Origin: Pseudomonadota bacterium
GTDB taxonomy: Bacteria; Pseudomonadota; Gammaproteobacteria; Acidiferrobacterales; Acidiferrobacteraceae
Direction: 5' to 3'
Assembly: GCA_021785035.1 (NCBI GenBank)
Contig: JAJYGP010000100.1
Coordinates: forward strand, 1-52,413
Length of the DNA stretch: 52,413 bases
This document shows, piece by piece, positions 1 to 7,999 of the stretch (positions are counted from its first letter, which is position 1; every line of letters begins with the position of its first letter). A program made the position numbers and the translations under genes. The notes under the pieces are model-generated. The model worked only from the letters and a program-made list of their open reading frames with translations, ran no database searches and had not been told where the DNA came from.

Positions 1-973
1 AGCACCAAAGATCACGACGCGTGAGGTGAAAGGCGGGCCCGCGATCGCCTACGACGATCAGTTCCTGGAGGGAACCGCTGGCGAGTCGTTTGGCAAGTGG
101 CTGAAGCCAGCTTTTGACCAAAGCCTCCAGAAAGGCCGACCAGCCCTCGGTATCTCCGTACTGAACCGGGCCTTGGGCACCACGCAGGACGAGCAAGATG
201 GGACCTTCGGGGGCGAGACCCTCTGGACTTGCGGGCGTCAGTGCCCAGGATGCGTGGGTGAGAGTCGCCGCGCCTTTGACCAAGACGTCATCGGTGTAGA
301 CCTGCGCAAAACGCGCCGGGGCCTCGGCCGGGGCAAGACCCGGACCCCAAAACCAGACGCTATTGACACAAAGCCCGGAGCCCTCGCCACCATGGCTACC
401 GACCAGGGCCTGGTGTAACACCATCTGGACCTCGTTCAACCGCGTCCGCCAATACCTCTGATCACCCTCAGGCAAAAGATTTTGGATATTGCGACCCGTC
501 ACCTCGGCCAGACCCGCGACCTGCAAAGCCTTAGGCCTTGGCAGGGTCAAATACCAACGATTCGGTGCGTGCACCTCGATCGCCCCATTTTCCTCGGCGA
601 AGACCTCCGTCACCACAGCGCTCAGGCGCTTGGCCTCTTCGTCCGTCAGGCCTATCGTTTCGTTGTCGACCAGCAAGAGCCGGTCCCCGTCGACCGCCAA
701 GTGCACCGGGTCACACCGCACCCACCACTGCGTACTCGGAGCCTGCCCCTCCCCCAAGCGCGCCAGAGCGGCTAAGCCCGTACTCTTCGCTAAACCAAAA
801 AGATCGAGTGTCCGATCGGTAAGCCCCTCACTCGCACGGGTCGTGGCGGAGGCCCGGGCGATAAAGCGCGCAAGCGATCGTGGCCAGGCAAGCGGCCAGG
901 GATCCCTCCCGGTCAACCCGGGAATAAATACCGTGACCGTATGTGCAGAGGAAAAACCGCTTTGCGGCCTCAC
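1..973 (-). CDS. Phosphoglycerate-mutase-like protein (COG4255/RpfE-like), C terminus cut by window edge
   Basis: The minus frame is open from a GTG at 971-973 to base 1, giving 324 codons without a stop. The GTG overlaps the ccoS stop (GTGA), which indicates translational coupling. The N-terminal part reads RPQSGFSSAHTVTVFIPGL, and near residue 85 there is a segment RCDPVHLAVDGDRLLLVDN. From memory, that segment is typical of a poorly characterised proteobacterial family annotated as cofactor-independent phosphoglycerate mutase or RpfE-type regulatory protein. No catalytic activity is proven for the family as far as I know. Its place at the end of the cco cluster may only reflect read-through transcription. 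The plus-strand ORFs over this region are antisense shadows. Confidence 0.7.
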   Translation of the reverse strand, partial: MRPQSGFSSAHTVTVFIPGLTGRDPWPLAWPRSLARFIARASATTRASEGLTDRTLDLFGLAKSTGLAALARLGEGQAPSTQWWVRCDPVHLAVDGDRLLLVDNETIGLTDEEAKRLSAVVTEVFAEENGAIEVHAPNRWYLTLPRPKALQVAGLAEVTGRNIQNLLPEGDQRYWRTRLNEVQMVLHQALVGSHGGEGSGLCVNSVWFWGPGLAPAEAPARFAQVYTDDVLVKGAATLTHASWALTPASPEGLAPEGPILLVLRGAQGPVQYGDTEGWSAFLEALVKSWLQPLAKRLASGSLQELIVVGDRGPAFHLTRRDLWC

Positions 974-1158
974 TCGTTATCCAGGGCGTCTATGCCTTCT
1001 CGTCGCGCGTCTTGCTCAGCATCGGACACCACTTTATACGCCACCCGTTCATTATCCTCATAGCTTCCCTTGAGAATGCCGCGGATCACGATGGCAACCG
1101 TGAGCACCACGAACGCCACGGCCGGCACAATGAGATAGAGCATGTAAGACTGGTTCAT
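970..1158 (-). CDS. ccoS: CcoS, cbb3 oxidase assembly protein
   Basis: A 62-residue protein with one N-terminal membrane helix (about residues 5-25) followed by the acidic segment GSYEDNERVAYKVV, which matches the CcoS/FixS family pattern of a helix plus a short acidic, YK-containing cytoplasmic tail. CcoS is needed for cofactor insertion (heme b and copper) into CcoN. The ATG at 1156-1158 overlaps the ccoI stop (ATGA), so I reject the longer reading from 1248, which would add 30 residues inside ccoI. The order ccoI-ccoS is the usual one. Confidence 0.88.
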   Translation of the reverse strand: MNQSYMLYLIVPAVAFVVLTVAIVIRGILKGSYEDNERVAYKVVSDAEQDARREGIDALDNE

Positions 1159-3590
1159 TCCTGACCCCCCTGACCGGAAACCAAAAGCCGCAACGCGTTC
1201 AGCACAACCAATAATGAGCTTCCCGACATACCAAGAGCCGCAAGCCAAGGAGGAACAAGTCCAAGAGCTGCGGCTGGCAAAGACACCACATTATAAAGGA
1301 TGGCCCACGCCAAATTTTCCCGCACCACCCAGCGCATACGGTGGACTAGCCTGAAGCTTTCGGCAAGGCCCGTGAGTCCGGACAACAAAATGAGATCGGC
1401 GCTCGCGGCGGCCAAGACATTGCGCCGCCCCACGGCGACCGCAACCGGCGCCGCGGCGAGTGCGGCCGCATCGTTGACCCCGTCGCCCACCATAGCCACG
1501 ACCCCCAAGGCCGAGAGTTTTTGGATCCAGGCGAGCTTATCTTCCGGCAAGAGATCCCCGTGAGCCTCGTCGATCCCTAATGTACGAGCCAACGCATCAA
1601 CCGTCACCGCACGGTCCCCGGATAAAAGCGCGATGCGCCGTCCCTGACGCCGAAGTCTTTGGAGAAGCGCCTCCGCTCCGGGCCGTAGTCGGTCATTGAA
1701 TACAAACACCCCAAGCGGGCGACACTCGTCCGACAGCCAGACCTCGGTCGCTTCCGCTTCAACCGTGAGAGGATCGCCCAGAGCGCCCGTAAAACGGCGC
1801 GTTCCCAGGCGATAGCGGCGTCCAGCGACTTGGCCCTCCAAACCCTCTCCCGGCGACGCCTGCACCCCCTCGGCCTCGTTCCCGGTCGCTACTCCTTGCG
1901 CGGCAAGAAAGGCCTGGGCGATCGGGTGTTCCGATCGGCGCTCCAAGGCGCAGGCCAGCGCCAAAAGCTCACTTTCGCGAAGATCCCCTCGCGGTACGAT
2001 GCGCGCAAGACTCAAACACCCCTCAGTCAAGGTCCCGGTTTTATCGAAGACAATCACCTGGGCGCGCGCCAAAAGCTCAAGCGCCGAGCTTCGAGTCACA
2101 ACAAGCCCGCGCCTCATAAGCGCACCGGTCGCCGCGGTCAAGGCTGTCGGTATCGCAAGCGACAAGGCGCACGGACAAGCGATGACAAGGACCGCAAGCG
2201 TCGCCGGAATGATATGAGCCGGATTTACGAAGGCCCAGGTCGCCGCAGTCGCGGTCGCCAAGACCAGCAAGCTCCCGACAAACCACGCCGAGGCCCGTTC
2301 GGCAAGAGCCGTCAGCCGCGGCTTGTCCCGCTGCGCGCGTTCGAGCAGTCCTTCAATAGTCGAGAGAACCGTCTCGCGACCCACACGCTGCACTAAGACC
2401 ACGAGCGCGCTCTCCATATTGACGCTGCCGGCGATTACCGATTCTCCGACCCTTTTGAGGACCGGACGAGCCTCACCCGTCAAGATCGACTCGTCCACCG
2501 ACGAGGCCCCGTCCGTTACGACGCCATCCGCCGGTATGCGCTCGCCGCTGCGAATCAGCAAGCGGTCGCCGACCGCGAGCAAGGACACTGGAACGCGTTC
2601 CTCGGAATCCCCAACGTCAAGACGTACGGCATCCTGCGGTAAGGCGTGGGTCAGAAGTTGCGCCGAGCGCGCGGTACGCGCTCGGGCCATATCTTCGAAA
2701 AGCCGCGAGAGCAGCAAAAAGGCGGCGAACATCGATACCGAATCGAAATAGACACTCCCCCGCCCGCGGATGAGGTCAAACAGGCTCACGGTAAAAGCAA
2801 TCGCAATCCCGAGCGCTACCGGAAGATCCATCCCGGTCCGACCTTGCTTTAAGTCGCGCCACGCCCCGCGAAAAAACGGGACAGCGGCGTAGGTGACAAT
2901 GGGAGTCGCAAGAGCAGCTGACAGCCATTCGAAGACGAGAAAGAGTCCGTGAGACATCCCCCAAGACGGCCCCAAATACAAAGCCAGCGCCAGCATCATG
3001 ACCTGCATCCCAAAGGAGGCAGCGATGACGAACCGATGGAGGAGATCGCGGCGTTGGCGATCAAAGACCTTCTGCACGACCCCGGCTTGGTAGGGGTGTG
3101 CGATGTAGCCGATCTCCCCAACCGCCTTCAAGATATCGCTGAGATGAATACGCATGTCGTCCCAACGCACAAAGGCGCGCTGGGTCGTATAGTTGATCTT
3201 GACGCTCTTGACGCCGGGAAGGTCGGCAATATGACGTTCGTTTAGCCACACGCAAGCCGCGCACCGTATCCCTTCCAAGAGCAAGGATACCTCTTTATCG
3301 CCATCCGCCCTATCGGCGACTAGTCCCTCCTGAATCGCCGGATGGTCATAGAGATCGGCCTTTTTGAGAAATTCCGGAACCGCGTCTTGCACACCAGAAC
3401 CCCGTTCGGTGCGTAAGGTATAGTATTCCGAAAGCCCACTGCCTAAGATCGCGCGCGCCACCTCATAGCAGCCCGGACAACAAAAACTTCGCTCGACTCC
3501 CAGGGCCTCCAGGCGCCACTTATCGTGCGGCGGACAGGGAAGTCCACAGTGGAAACACTCGTTCGCCCGCTCCTTCAACTCTGCGGCCAT
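1155..3590 (-). CDS. ccoI: CcoI/FixI copper-translocating P1B-type ATPase
   Basis: An 811-residue heavy-metal P-type ATPase. The N terminus has a cysteine-rich metal-binding segment (CFHCG near 12-16, CCPGC at 37-41) typical of FixI/CcoI, followed by a heavy-metal-associated domain with CAAC at 110-113. The actuator motif TGE lies at 371-373, the membrane metal-site CPC at 472-474, the phosphorylation motif DKTGT at 516-520, and the hinge GDGVNDAAAL near 725. It exports copper to the periplasmic side for building the CuB centre of CcoN. It begins 7 bases after the TauE/SafE-type gene and overlaps ccoS. Confidence 0.93.
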   Translation of the reverse strand: MAAELKERANECFHCGLPCPPHDKWRLEALGVERSFCCPGCYEVARAILGSGLSEYYTLRTERGSGVQDAVPEFLKKADLYDHPAIQEGLVADRADGDKEVSLLLEGIRCAACVWLNERHIADLPGVKSVKINYTTQRAFVRWDDMRIHLSDILKAVGEIGYIAHPYQAGVVQKVFDRQRRDLLHRFVIAASFGMQVMMLALALYLGPSWGMSHGLFLVFEWLSAALATPIVTYAAVPFFRGAWRDLKQGRTGMDLPVALGIAIAFTVSLFDLIRGRGSVYFDSVSMFAAFLLLSRLFEDMARARTARSAQLLTHALPQDAVRLDVGDSEERVPVSLLAVGDRLLIRSGERIPADGVVTDGASSVDESILTGEARPVLKRVGESVIAGSVNMESALVVLVQRVGRETVLSTIEGLLERAQRDKPRLTALAERASAWFVGSLLVLATATAATWAFVNPAHIIPATLAVLVIACPCALSLAIPTALTAATGALMRRGLVVTRSSALELLARAQVIVFDKTGTLTEGCLSLARIVPRGDLRESELLALACALERRSEHPIAQAFLAAQGVATGNEAEGVQASPGEGLEGQVAGRRYRLGTRRFTGALGDPLTVEAEATEVWLSDECRPLGVFVFNDRLRPGAEALLQRLRRQGRRIALLSGDRAVTVDALARTLGIDEAHGDLLPEDKLAWIQKLSALGVVAMVGDGVNDAAALAAAPVAVAVGRRNVLAAASADLILLSGLTGLAESFRLVHRMRWVVRENLAWAILYNVVSLPAAALGLVPPWLAALGMSGSSLLVVLNALRLLVSGQGGQE

Positions 3591-3597
3591 AAGGTCT

Positions 3598-4272
3598 TTA
3601 TGCCAAAGGGCTTATGAGACTGACTAGACCATAGCCCACGATAAGCGCCGCCAAGGCCTTACGCACGGACGGCCGCCGGACCCACGCGCTGAACCGACGC
3701 GCGCTTCCCAAGGCCAGTAGGCCGGGCCATGTGGCGAGCCCAAAAATCGCCATGAGCCCCGCCCCGCGAACCGCCGAGCCGCTCACAAGCGCCCAGGCCA
3801 GAACTGAATAGACCAAGCCACAAGGCAAAAATCCCCAGACCAGGCCCAAGCCTAAGGCCTGCCTGAGATTTGTGACCGGAAGAAAGCGCTGACCCAAGGG
3901 TCGCAGGTAGGCGAACGCATGCCCGCCCCAGGTCTCAAGTCGTCCAAGAGCCCGCCACCATCCGCCGAGAAATAAGCCCAACGCCACCATAAACAAGGCG
4001 GCAATGCGATCACCGACCGCGGCCACCCCTGGTCCGGGAACCGCTGCCATCAAACGATGGCCAAAGCCGCCGAGCACGGCACCGGCTAGGGCATAGCTTA
4101 CAATCCGTCCAATATTGTAGGCGAAAAGAAAGGGCCACACGCGCGCCTGATCCTTGCGGATATTGGCCGCGAGCGCCCCCATAATGCCGCCGCACATCCC
4201 GATGCAATGGGTTCCAGAACCGATCAGCCCCACCACGAGGGCCGATACCCACAGTCCGCTCAAAGCCGGCAT
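3598..4272 (-). CDS. TauE/SafE-type (DsbD_2-like) membrane protein of the cco cluster
   Basis: A 224-residue polytopic protein with about six hydrophobic segments. The N-terminal motif GTHCIGMCGGIMGAL is the hallmark of a family often labelled sulfite exporter TauE/SafE or DsbD_2/UreH-like. Members commonly sit beside ccoI/ccoS and are suspected to help with copper or redox handling during oxidase assembly. The two Cys residues bracketing the Gly-Met pair are candidate metal or redox ligands. The sulfite-export name is a family label only, although the host appears to oxidise sulfite. It starts 6 bases after the small membrane gene upstream and precedes ccoI by 7 bases. Confidence 0.75.
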   Translation of the reverse strand: MPALSGLWVSALVVGLIGSGTHCIGMCGGIMGALAANIRKDQARVWPFLFAYNIGRIVSYALAGAVLGGFGHRLMAAVPGPGVAAVGDRIAALFMVALGLFLGGWWRALGRLETWGGHAFAYLRPLGQRFLPVTNLRQALGLGLVWGFLPCGLVYSVLAWALVSGSAVRGAGLMAIFGLATWPGLLALGSARRFSAWVRRPSVRKALAALIVGYGLVSLISPLA

Positions 4273-4278
4273 AGCCCT

Positions 4279-4476
4279 TTAGACCGAATTGTCTTCGGCT
4301 TCCGTTTCCAGCAGCTGATATTTGGGGAGTTCGATGCTCTTACGCAGGTCCGGACTCTTTTGCCACGCCCGCCAACTCGACATCATAAAAACCTTGACGA
4401 CGATCACCAAGAAAAAGAACAAGGCCACGAAAAAACCGGTAATAAACACCTGCCACCGATAAAACTCATTCATCAC
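4279..4476 (-). CDS. Small single-helix membrane protein, 65 aa, cco cluster
   Basis: Unrecognised. A short N terminus is followed by one very hydrophobic helix (about residues 9-32, rich in Phe and Val) and then a hydrophilic, acidic tail ending DNSV. A strong GGAGG ribosome site lies 8 bases before the GTG at 4476; an ATG one codon later (4473) is the other possible start. It is the fifth of five tiny genes placed between ccoO-ccoP and the assembly genes. It could be an oxidase accessory subunit comparable in size to CcoQ, but I see no clear CcoQ or CcoH signature. Confidence 0.7.
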   Translation of the reverse strand: MMNEFYRWQVFITGFFVALFFFLVIVVKVFMMSSWRAWQKSPDLRKSIELPKYQLLETEAEDNSV

Positions 4477-4524
4477 AGGCCTATCCTCCTCCCCCCGGGA
4501 CGCTTGCCCCGGGGGGCCATCTCT

Positions 4525-4671
4525 CTATAAATGCCAGGTGCCTGGCTGCCGGCTCAAAACGATCCAGACGAATCGTCCCCAGGACGTGGACTCAAGGAAA
4601 AAGTACACGCCGACCAGGACCGCCATCAGACCGAGATACCATAAAAATCCATTACGCTGGCTCTGATCCAC
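4525..4671 (-). CDS. Tiny membrane protein, 48 aa, cco cluster
   Basis: A GTG-start frame of 49 codons including the stop, preceded by an excellent ribosome site (AAGGAGAGGAAC directly before GTG). The protein begins MDQSQRNGFLWYLG, has one transmembrane helix (about residues 9-26) and ends in a short basic segment finishing PGTWHL. It is too short for usual gene finders. The evidence for it being real is the Shine-Dalgarno site, the hydrophobic helix and its fit between neighbours with gaps of only 15 and 48 bases. Function unknown; a small oxidase subunit is an inference from context. Confidence 0.68.
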   Translation of the reverse strand: MDQSQRNGFLWYLGLMAVLVGVYFFLESTSWGRFVWIVLSRQPGTWHL

Positions 4672-4686
4672 GTTCCTCTCCTTGCC

Positions 4687-4827
4687 TTAATGAATAAAGC
4701 CGTACAGCGAGCTTCCGATCAAGAAGCAAAACGCCAACAGCCAACCGATTTTGAGGGGCAGGGAGAGACCACCATTCTCCGGCTCCGGAATGTAAGGCTC
4801 GGGTTCCTTATGGCTATTTGATCCCAT
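4687..4827 (-). CDS. Tiny membrane protein, 46 aa, cco cluster
   Basis: An ATG frame with AAAGGAGAACC placed 4 bases upstream. The N-terminal half is hydrophilic and proline/glutamate-rich (MGSNSHKEPEPYIPEPENG), followed by a single C-terminal helix starting near residue 26 and ending GFIH. This arrangement, a soluble N terminus with a C-terminal anchor, differs from the 48-residue neighbour. It begins 12 bases after the 49-residue gene and is followed 15 bases later by the 48-residue gene. No family is recognised. Confidence 0.68.
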   Translation of the reverse strand: MGSNSHKEPEPYIPEPENGGLSLPLKIGWLLAFCFLIGSSLYGFIH

Positions 4828-4839
4828 GATGGTTCTCCT

Positions 4840-4989
4840 TTACTTTTGGCCAGTGCGGCGCTTACGCGTCTTTAAGGCCCAGTTAACGGCGATGTATCCG
4901 AGGAACCCCAGCGCAGCGTATATGACCACCCCGATCGTGAGGATCCAACCCAGTTCAACAGCGGGATTATGCGGACCAAGTACGTTCAT
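4840..4989 (-). CDS. Tiny membrane protein, 49 aa, CcoQ-sized
   Basis: An ATG frame with AAGGGGA 5 bases upstream. The protein begins MNVLGPHNPAVELGWIL, has one helix (about 13-37) and ends with a strongly basic tail (KTRKRRTGQK), giving a positive-inside C terminus. Length and the helix-plus-basic-tail layout resemble the small cbb3 subunit CcoQ, but I cannot establish homology. It lies 9 bases downstream of the 76-residue gene and 12 bases upstream of the next one, a spacing expected of one polycistronic message. Confidence 0.68.
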   Translation of the reverse strand: MNVLGPHNPAVELGWILTIGVVIYAALGFLGYIAVNWALKTRKRRTGQK

Positions 4990-4998
4990 AGAGTCCCC

Positions 4999-5229
4999 TT
5001 ACCGGCCTACAGACACGCGGCCATCGCGATCGTCCGCTCCAGACCGCGTGAGCCGCAGATCCTTTTTGATCTGGGCCACAACCATATGCCGGTCGACCAC
5101 CACATAACCCAGATTGCGCATACGCTTTGCGTACAGAATCCAGACCCCGAACCAAGCCATAACTATCGTCGCGTACACGGCGAAGCCTATGGTGAATACC
5201 CAGGCATATATCGATATCGAGTCAAACAT
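4999..5229 (-). CDS. Small membrane protein, 76 aa, directly after the oxidase subunits
   Basis: The ATG follows a GAGGT ribosome site. One long helix (about residues 7-33) precedes a basic cytoplasmic-looking tail (KRMRNLGYVVVDRHMVVAQIKKDLRLTR is its central part, shown here only as a landmark of basic residues at 35-62). The gene starts 12 bases after ccoO-ccoP. No domain is recognised. Position immediately behind the catalytic subunits is where ccoQ or a CcoM-like small subunit is often found, so an accessory subunit is the favoured but unproven reading. Confidence 0.72.
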   Translation of the reverse strand: MFDSISIYAWVFTIGFAVYATIVMAWFGVWILYAKRMRNLGYVVVDRHMVVAQIKKDLRLTRSGADDRDGRVSVGR

Positions 5230-5241
5230 ACAATTACCTCG

Positions 5242-6585
5242 CTAGTTATGAGCAGAGCTTTGGGCGGCGGTCAATCGCGCTATCCTGACCGTTTTGCCGG
5301 GCGCTGCAGCTGCCGATTGAATATCTTTCGGTTTTTTCGCCAGGGTCTCCACGAAGTAGGAAATCGCCCAGCGGACCTTGCGCGGCAAGGTGCTAAACGA
5401 TGGCATCGCGGTGCCCGTCCGTCCGTGATTAATGGTGTGGTAGACCCACCGTGCGGACGGATTCATCATCGCAAGATCGACCGGCGCCGGCGTTAAGGCT
5501 GTGGCGAGAACGCCGTTGCCTTCGCCCTTAGGCCCGTGACAAGTCGCGCAGTTAGTCGCGAACTGGGCCCCGCCCAACTTAACCAAAGCCGCGGTCTTCG
5601 CGATGGGTGCATGGGCCGTCGGCGGCACCGTCGCATGGCGATGCAAAGTCTGCACGTAGTAGGCGACGCTCCACAGGTCTCGCGGGGTCAAGAACGCATC
5701 CGCGGCACGCACCCAAGAGGGCATCGCCGAGCCAGGCCGTCCATAATAGAGAACCTTATAGACAAAGCTGGCTCGAAAGCGAAATGCGTTCAAGCGCACC
5801 GGCCGCGGGGTCAGGTATTGCGCAGCGACACCACGGCCGTTGCCCGTGGCGCCATGACAACTCGCGCAGTCCATGGCATACAAGTGCTTCCCACGCGCGC
5901 GCGCGGAGCGGGTATCGGCTATACGCGGGGCCTTGTGAAAGTACACCACGTGGTCGTAACCAGGGGACATCAGCCGGCCCCCCTTGTACGGGTAGTGCAA
6001 CACCGTGCCTATCCCTTGAACGAAAACCTTCTTCAGGGTGCCCTTGGCCAGCATTTCCCGCTTACGCGCCTGACCGAGCGTCCCGAGATAAGCCACCAGC
6101 GCCCGGCCCTGCTTGTTCGGCTTACCGGGCGAACCGTCGAACATCCAATGGTAGGCCGGCATAATCGACCAGGGCGCAATCATGCGCGGGTCGTATAGAT
6201 GCACGTACTCCCAATCGGCCGGATGGTCGAGCGATTCCCGGGTGAGATCCGGACCCTTGCGGCGGGTACTCAAAAGATTGGGATATTGATGCTTGTACTC
6301 CCAGGCCTTTGAGACTGCGCCAAAGCGCAAGGGGTCGTCCGCTACCGGACGCACGAACTGGCTATGGCAGTAATAGCAGCCATTGGCTATGTAGATCTGT
6401 CGACCCTTCAGCTGCAGCGGCGTCAAAAGAGGGACATGCTGAGTCTTTTTGTGGCCCTTGAGCTCGTGGTTGATATTGAACCACGGGGTCAAGCCAAGAC
6501 CGATAAAGGCCAACAAAAAAAACCCAATACCGGCCACGAGCATAATAAAGACTGCCCGCTCAATGCCTAATTTATGAGCATCCAT
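5242..6585 (-). CDS. ccoO: Fused cbb3 oxidase subunit II and di-heme cytochrome c (CcoO-CcoP type)
   Basis: From the ATG at 6585 (GAGGTAAGAG ribosome site) the protein has 447 residues. Residues 1-210 are CcoO-like: one N-terminal helix (10-33), heme motif CYYCH at 70-74, the conserved FVRPVADD and a later IMPAYHWMF segment holding the likely Met ligand. Residues 225-315 form a second cytochrome c domain with CASCH at 240-244, and residues 333-417 a third with CATCH at 346-350. Each has a downstream Met-Pro (SAMPS, TAMPS). Normally the di-heme part is a separate membrane-anchored CcoP. No separate ccoP lies nearby, so this gene probably supplies all three c hemes. A longer start at 6657 would overlap ccoN by 65 bases and is rejected. 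Confidence 0.9.
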   Translation of the reverse strand: MDAHKLGIERAVFIMLVAGIGFFLLAFIGLGLTPWFNINHELKGHKKTQHVPLLTPLQLKGRQIYIANGCYYCHSQFVRPVADDPLRFGAVSKAWEYKHQYPNLLSTRRKGPDLTRESLDHPADWEYVHLYDPRMIAPWSIMPAYHWMFDGSPGKPNKQGRALVAYLGTLGQARKREMLAKGTLKKVFVQGIGTVLHYPYKGGRLMSPGYDHVVYFHKAPRIADTRSARARGKHLYAMDCASCHGATGNGRGVAAQYLTPRPVRLNAFRFRASFVYKVLYYGRPGSAMPSWVRAADAFLTPRDLWSVAYYVQTLHRHATVPPTAHAPIAKTAALVKLGGAQFATNCATCHGPKGEGNGVLATALTPAPVDLAMMNPSARWVYHTINHGRTGTAMPSFSTLPRKVRWAISYFVETLAKKPKDIQSAAAAPGKTVRIARLTAAQSSAHN

Positions 6586-6592
6586 GGGTCTC

Positions 6593-7999
6593 TTACCTCG
6601 CACCGGCAAGGACGGCCGGGCTGTCGGTGGCCGGCTGCTTGGCGCGTGCTGTGACAATAAGGTTGATGGCGACCAAAATGAAGCCGGTGAGGACCATCAC
6701 GCCAGACAGCGTGCGACTGAGCCAGTAGGGCTGAAGACGGACGATGGAGTCCATCCACGGCTTGCCGTAGCCCCAGTAATAGCCTTCGAGGAGTCCCGCG
6801 ATCCAAAGGTCTATGAACATCCAGGCGCAACCCACGAAGGCGAGCCAGAAAGACCACTCCGACAAAGACTTGTTGAGCTCATTGCCAGTCAGTCGCGGCC
6901 ACGCATAATGGATAAAGCCCATGGCGACGAACGTGCCGAACCCCAAAAGCGCCATGTGCGAGTGGCCGATTACCCAATCGGTGAAGTGGATCAGCGGCTG
7001 CTCAACCAACAGCGCTTGCAAGGGGCCTTGGGTGCAAACCATAAGATAAAACACGGTTCCACCGATAAGCCACCGCAGGGCGATATTGTCCGCGAGGTCG
7101 CCCCACCGCCCCTTCATGGTTTTGTACACGTTATACAAAACAGTGTAGACGGTGAAAAACAGCATGAACGACGTCCCTTGGGCGATGTACTGGGCCCACA
7201 TCGGGATCGGGCTATAGTAATAATGGTGGATACCGACCAGCGGGTAAAAGAAGGCCAGGCTCCAAAATCCCATGAGCGAAAGCGAATGGGAGTAAATGGG
7301 GCGACGCAACATAACCGGCAGGAAGTAATAGATCATGGCGGTCGCGAGCGGCGTGACAACAAGACCCACGAGGTCGTGAATGAAAAGCCCGCCGACGACC
7401 GCGCTTGCGATACCGGGCGCGATATAGGCCGGCACAAGCCCGCCCATGATCCAATTGAGCGTCGCCCATATGACGAAGCTCATCATATACCAGCTCGAGA
7501 CATACAGGTTTCGTTCCTGGCTCCGGAGGTAGGAAGCGAAGAAGTTGTAGGCCAAAGCGGCATACGATATCAGCATGAGAATGTTGATGAAGCTTGGGTA
7601 TTCCATCCACACCACGCCGAGGTTATGGCCTTCCATCAGCTGGAATACCCCCATGGCTACCATGGTGTTGTAGAAGTAGAAGTTAAACCAAGCGAGGGTG
7701 GGACTAGCTAATTTGACACGGGTGAGGCGGGGAACCATGTAGTAAATGGCGGCTAAGAAAATATCGACGAACCAACCATAAGCTACGGTTTGCGTGTGGA
7801 CGAATCGTAATCGCCCCCAAGTTAGTTCGGGTATATTGCCGAGAAAATTTGGCCAGGTAAACTTTATCGCTACGAGTAAACCTCCTCCCACTATCAAATA
7901 AATCAACCAAAATACTGCTGCCGCTATATGAGCTTTTATGAGCCGCGGTTCGATCAACGATTCGCCCGCGACGAGCTCTTGTGTCTCGCTCCTCTTCAT
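6593..7999 (-). CDS. ccoN: CcoN, cbb3-type cytochrome oxidase catalytic subunit I
   Basis: A 468-residue, about twelve-helix protein. Key ligands are visible: His68 (RFVHT), His208 with Tyr252 (the expected CuB His and cross-linked Tyr of cbb3 enzymes), His258-His259 (GIHHY), and His346/His348 (GHSHMALLGF) for the hemes. These numbers are close to those I recall for the Pseudomonas stutzeri enzyme. It reduces oxygen to water at high affinity and contributes to the proton gradient. It is the first gene of the cluster, and the fused ccoO-ccoP gene follows after 7 bases. Confidence 0.95.
   Translation of the reverse strand: MKRSETQELVAGESLIEPRLIKAHIAAAVFWLIYLIVGGGLLVAIKFTWPNFLGNIPELTWGRLRFVHTQTVAYGWFVDIFLAAIYYMVPRLTRVKLASPTLAWFNFYFYNTMVAMGVFQLMEGHNLGVVWMEYPSFINILMLISYAALAYNFFASYLRSQERNLYVSSWYMMSFVIWATLNWIMGGLVPAYIAPGIASAVVGGLFIHDLVGLVVTPLATAMIYYFLPVMLRRPIYSHSLSLMGFWSLAFFYPLVGIHHYYYSPIPMWAQYIAQGTSFMLFFTVYTVLYNVYKTMKGRWGDLADNIALRWLIGGTVFYLMVCTQGPLQALLVEQPLIHFTDWVIGHSHMALLGFGTFVAMGFIHYAWPRLTGNELNKSLSEWSFWLAFVGCAWMFIDLWIAGLLEGYYWGYGKPWMDSIVRLQPYWLSRTLSGVMVLTGFILVAINLIVTARAKQPATDSPAVLAGAR

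Follow-up and report, generated by a model that had tools for sequence, protein, structure and literature searches.

The window, i.e. the whole stretch of 52,413 nucleotides analysed here, is a contig of ~52 kb belonging to the genome (2.28 Mb in 107 contigs) of a bacterium from an acid habitat. On its minus strand it carries, in one orientation throughout, ccoN, a ccoO-ccoP fusion (ccoOP), five small open reading frames designated p76, p49, p46, p48 and p65, and the genes for a DsbD_2 protein, CcoI and a CcoS-like protein. The ccoN gene (6593..7999) encodes a divergent C-family haem-copper oxidase subunit I of 468 aa, which matches Pfam COX1 with an E value of 5e-71 and TIGR00780 with 218.7 bits against a cut-off of 583. 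The fusion gene (5242..6585) encodes a protein of 447 aa with one transmembrane (TM) helix, CxxCH motifs at residues 70, 240 and 346, and matches to FixO and to Cytochrome_CBB3 / Cytochrom_C. At the other end of the run lie the genes for a DsbD_2 / TauE-like membrane protein of the type found in cbb3 clusters (3598..4272; Pfam PF13386, E 1e-47), a CcoI-type copper P-type ATPase (1155..3590; above the cut-offs of TIGR01511 / TIGR01525) and a CcoS-like maturation protein of 62 aa (970..1158; FixS 19.7 bits, E 7e-4, under the cut-off of 23.1). The usual order of maturation genes in canonical clusters is GHIS, and the DsbD_2-CcoI-CcoS order seen here (970-4272) is unlike it. The sole other haem-copper oxidase subunit I gene found in the genome (G000:C91:4-1164) is cut by a contig end and has an A-type look.

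The five small frames, also on the minus strand, fill the interval between ccoOP and the DsbD_2 gene. p76 (4999..5229) encodes a single TM segment and a long, conserved basic C-terminal tail of ~40 residues, and p49 (4840..4989) a single TM segment with a strongly basic C terminus. The product of p46 (4687..4827) has a Pro/Glu-rich N terminus and a TM segment at its C-terminal end; p48 (4525..4671) starts with GTG and encodes a TM segment followed by a conserved aromatic C-terminal segment; p65 (4279..4476), whose start is GTG at 4476 or ATG at 4473, encodes a TM segment and a W..PKYxLLE tail. The gaps are 12 bases between ccoOP and p76, then 9, 12, 15 and 48 between the small frames and 6 before the DsbD_2 gene. 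The earlier note had described five consecutive frames, on the strand of ccoO-ccoP, of 76, 49, 46, 48 and 65 codons with gaps of 9-48 bases, each with its own ribosome site and one predicted helix and with differing topologies, and all of this was found: a single hydrophobic segment is present in every peptide, and each frame is preceded by a Shine-Dalgarno-like site. The five genes are probably co-transcribed; a scan for promoters and terminators gave results near the shuffled expectation and was uninformative.

The note had also proposed conserved order and dN/dS as a check on these frames, and both speak for them. All five frames recur, with their order unchanged, in two further species of the genus (G001 and G008), both represented by MAG contigs (15.5 and 7.8 kb); the complete set is known from three genomes within a single genus. 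The window-type oxidase is present in 3 of the 14 genus genomes, each of which has all five frames. The peptides are 93-100 % identical to their G001 counterparts, and the identities to those of G008 are 71 % for p76, 76 % for p49, 89 % for p46, 85 % for p48 and 78 % for p65 (84 % for CcoOP). Nucleotide changes fall mostly at third positions, and dN/dS was 0-0.11 for the five frames where it could be computed, synonymous sites being saturated in three comparisons. When the same substitutions were placed at random 5000 times, every trial gave more amino-acid changes than observed, for each of the five frames (P = 2e-4, the smallest value this test can give), and 46-68 % of the randomly substituted versions contained a stop codon. 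Small size and the lack of any family match might suggest that some of the frames are untranslated or non-functional. This is extremely improbable: the selection signal of all five is at the limit of the test, no frame is disrupted in the relatives compared, and the 84%-identical relative keeps both the Shine-Dalgarno-like sites and the start codons, the GTG of p48 among them. The five frames are thus confirmed as genuine genes under purifying selection.

None of the five peptides matched a family in Pfam or NCBIfam, CcoQ / FixQ (PF05545) included, and as no Pfam match reached the cut-off there was none to a family covering CcoM. A sulfur-type relative of p65 matched FixQ with an E value of 0.007, below the cut-off, and profile comparison of p65-type proteins with CcoQ gave a probability of 19-25, a weak resemblance. 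p76 and p49 are shown as paralogues by sequence comparison (45 % identity over 31 aa in G008; profile probability 82, reached by 0 of 44 control TM segments) and would have arisen by duplication. Their N termini are probably outside and their C termini inside, because the C-terminal tails are basic (positive-inside rule); membrane insertion and orientation of all five peptides are predictions. A search of PDB sequences with p49 and p76 returned chance matches only.

The oxidase itself is a distinct form, as the earlier note had surmised. The window CcoN is ~29-31 % identical to canonical CcoN and 40-42 % identical to other divergent CcoN proteins, and in a maximum-likelihood tree of 30 CcoN sequences it falls, with 100/100 support, in a clade of 13 members apart from 17 canonical ones. 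According to the alignment of the 30 sequences, members of the clade have Gly in place of Trp203 (numbering of P. stutzeri, following PMC3578206), Gln in place of Glu in the FEGP motif of helix VIII and Gly in place of His in VHFW, while they retain the CuB histidines (H207, HH) and Tyr251 of helix VII. In the PDB the window CcoN is matched best by CcoN chains of cbb3 oxidases (E ~1e-53). The enzyme therefore belongs to the C family (cbb3-type): it has a CcoN-like subunit I with the CuB histidines and Tyr251, mono-haem CcoO and di-haem CcoP domains and no CuA subunit. With its separate clade, Gly203 and a fusion of one TM helix it lies outside the canonical cbb3 clade. Since the CuB histidines and Tyr251 are retained, it is most likely an O2 reductase; NO reductase activity is disfavoured by Tyr251 and by the cbb3-type haem subunits.

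The window operon shares with the canonical ccoNOQP-ccoGHIS system a catalytic subunit of the C family that has His207, Tyr251 and the His-His CuB site, c domains of the mono-haem and di-haem kinds, neighbouring genes for CcoI, CcoS and DsbD_2, and small single-helix proteins, which in the canonical system are CcoQ, CcoM, CcoH and CcoS. It differs in its divergent CcoN, in the fusion of CcoO and CcoP, whose three haem-c sites share a sole helix, that of CcoO, both CcoP helices being gone, and in having no CcoQ family match, no CcoG or CcoH and five small proteins that fall into none of the known families. The CcoP helices are likewise absent in every fused relative examined, and none of the 14 genomes of the genus has a match to CcoG or CcoH above the cut-off. 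The contrast that the note had drawn with the one or two small subunits of known cbb3 operons slightly understates the norm, because CcoS and CcoH, of one helix each, belong to canonical clusters too; the window operon likewise has its CcoS-like gene.

The divergent clade had already been glimpsed, since Gly203 was reported for Nitrospina and, besides, only for Sinorhizobium subunits (Lucker et al. 2013, PMC3578206). The Nitrospina gracilis and Sinorhizobium enzymes share with the window oxidase Gly203, divergent CuB surroundings and a fused mono-haem and di-haem c part, but in N. gracilis all three subunits form one chain of 954 aa, and the Nitrospina/Sinorhizobium subgroup has His202 and Tyr208, neither of which is present in the window CcoN. 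Small proteins are not mentioned in the parts of that paper used here, and no description of such proteins for this oxidase clade was found in the literature. The NCBIfam model NF011054 (PRK14486), a putative bifunctional cbb3 subunit II / cytochrome c, also combines CcoO with cytochrome c domains and matches the window fusion with E 8e-48, but the score of 163 bits compares with a cut-off of 447, and the model has 294 residues against the 447-residue triheme chain. Leptospirillum-type cbb3 is suggested as the nearest relative by PMC10654088.

Divergent oxidases with the same fusion were found in two further settings. The first, the sulfur-type group A, comprises G051 (same order), G640 (same class), a Komagataeibacter plasmid and a Paraburkholderia plasmid; here ccoN-ccoOP is followed by one frame of ~64 codons homologous to p65. 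In all four lineages this is the single small frame right after ccoOP (profile probability 96, reached by 0 of 44 TM controls), and tblastn with p65 detected it with E values of 1e-5 to 1e-7 in three lineages and 0.008 in G051. G051 holds both a canonical cbb3 and the divergent fused cbb3 (L023 and L027), the divergent one beside several c-type cytochromes. In G640 (L034 5344-8498) the divergent oxidase genes lie 3' of c-type cytochrome genes and a sulfite-dehydrogenase-like gene, a neighbourhood hinting at a role in sulfur oxidation.

The second, group B, comprises six rhizobial plasmids and one alphaproteobacterial chromosome with the order ccoN, ccoOP, four tiny single-helix frames s1-s4, DsbD_2 and CcoI. 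The products are 58-74 aa (s1), about 70 aa (s2), 31-35 aa (s3) and 40 aa (s4). Comparisons of s1, s2 and s4 indicated coding selection; s3 is conserved in position and motif, with a weaker selection signal (P 0.0002 to 0.18 between divergent pairs). The s1 and s2 frames overlap by a few dozen bases. For the rhizobial clusters L044 and L048 the gene tables lack s3, and not every record has s4 and s1 annotated. In the record of Sinorhizobium meliloti R11 pSymA (L038 3372-6492) ccoN and ccoOP are frameshifted; they are intact in strain RCAM1750 (L048). Operons in which several tiny single-helix genes separate ccoOP from the genes for copper assembly, at the same place as in the window, thus reach into Alphaproteobacteria. 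Homology of s1-s4 to the five peptides was sought by profile comparison, which has little power for short TM proteins, and was not detected, either for the set or for p76, p49, p46 and p48 in particular; the s4-p76 pair was suggestive in one direction only (probability 13; 0/44 controls as high one way, 4/44 the other). The likeness is therefore one of layout only, and common descent of the two sets is unproven. The 'undescribed system' of the earlier note goes too far: the oxidase clade had been noticed in Nitrospina and Sinorhizobium (PMC3578206), NF011054 covers fusions of CcoO with cytochrome c, and small single-helix subunits of terminal oxidases are a known kind. The small proteins themselves lack Pfam and NCBIfam matches, and the rhizobial representatives of the clade carry comparable sets of tiny frames.

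Within Pseudomonadota, the range of the searches, this type of oxidase is rare. Among 398 sampled Pseudomonadota genomes the window-type fusion profile had one strong match beyond its own genome (G640) and the rhizobial-type fusion also one (G620), and among 369 genomes of the class the window's own was the only one with a strong match. The p76/p49 and p48 profiles matched only the 3 of 57 order genomes that have the window-type operon, with one marginal exception (p76/p49 in G016, E 0.007). No homologues of p76, p49, p46 and p48 were detected outside the three genomes of the genus, and p46 and p48 are lineage-specific.

This co-occurrence of p76/p49 and p48 with the oxidase and the operon position kept in three species argue for a dedicated role. 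Our preferred reading, to which we give a probability of roughly two in three, is that the five are single-helix inner-membrane proteins that serve the divergent C-family oxidase either as small subunits or as assembly helices remaining stably bound to it. They would sit around CcoN as peripheral helices and may stabilise the complex or help to build it, in parallel with canonical enzymes, in which CcoQ has an assembly role (PMC8780969), CcoM is a 36-aa subunit (PMC10433244) and a helix beside CcoN in a complex studied by cryo-EM is assigned to CcoH (PMC7876108). The likeness to CcoM, CcoQ, YnhF/CydH and CydX lies in size (30-80 aa), in the one helix and in being usually overlooked in annotation; a sequence relation to them was not detected save for the weak p65-type / CcoQ resemblance. 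Because the p65 family follows ccoOP in both the window and group-A lineages, p65 would be the core small subunit, conserved across these lineages and weakly CcoQ-like. The oxidase type can do without the other four, since group A has the same fusion with one small frame, and the rhizobial operons with four tiny frames at the same spot suggest that this oxidase branch probably has undescribed small parts.

The main rival is that the peptides are transient assembly factors, serving haem or copper delivery or CcoN-CcoOP joining in place of CcoG and CcoH and absent from the finished enzyme. The failure of both to appear above cut-off in the genus is in keeping with this, as are the proximity of the small genes to those of DsbD_2, CcoI and CcoS and the single small frame of relatives without a local DsbD_2-CcoI pair. 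We nevertheless consider it rather unlikely, as the five peptides contain no metal- or haem-binding motif and one Cys in all (in p46), and p65 is likewise present where a cluster has no assembly genes nearby. Rhizobial hosts are expected to have standard fixGHIS, so the tiny frames there would not replace lost factors. That the peptides instead tie the oxidase to partners such as the bc1 complex or a periplasmic cytochrome, or regulate it, seems quite improbable: single-helix elements of CcoH and cytochrome cy are assigned to the bc1-cbb3 interface (PMC7876108) and the basic tail of p76 is likely on the cytoplasmic side, but nothing in the operon points to a partner and none was identified.

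A bolder version of the small-subunit reading, which we regard as unlikely, is that the CcoP haem domains moved onto the CcoO helix and the lost CcoP helix positions were filled by separately encoded single-helix peptides. If so, the minimal oxidase would consist of CcoN, CcoOP and four or five lineage-varying micro-subunits, and the lost positions would possibly include a proton-entry residue at the cytoplasmic face. A strict need for such refilling is disfavoured because group A has the same fusion with a single small frame. p46 and the rhizobial s2 look alike, with a Pro/Glu-rich stretch and an aromatic TM segment, and were considered as split-off CcoP helix 2, an idea rejected as profile comparison did no better than control TM segments. 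When p46, p76, p49, s2 and s4 were compared with the canonical CcoP N terminus (FixP_N), 1-39 of 44 control TM segments scored as high or higher, so replacement of the lost helices by these peptides is not supported at the sequence level.

C-family oxidases have been studied almost only in their canonical form. The deep divergent branch spans acidophiles, sulfur-type clusters, acetic acid bacteria, Burkholderiales and rhizobia, and carries sets of conserved micro-proteins that tend to escape standard annotation, such as s3. If the peptides are subunits, they would show how a cytochrome subunit with several helices can be given up in favour of a fused chain and micro-subunits, an idea that is testable since the rhizobial hosts can be grown and manipulated.
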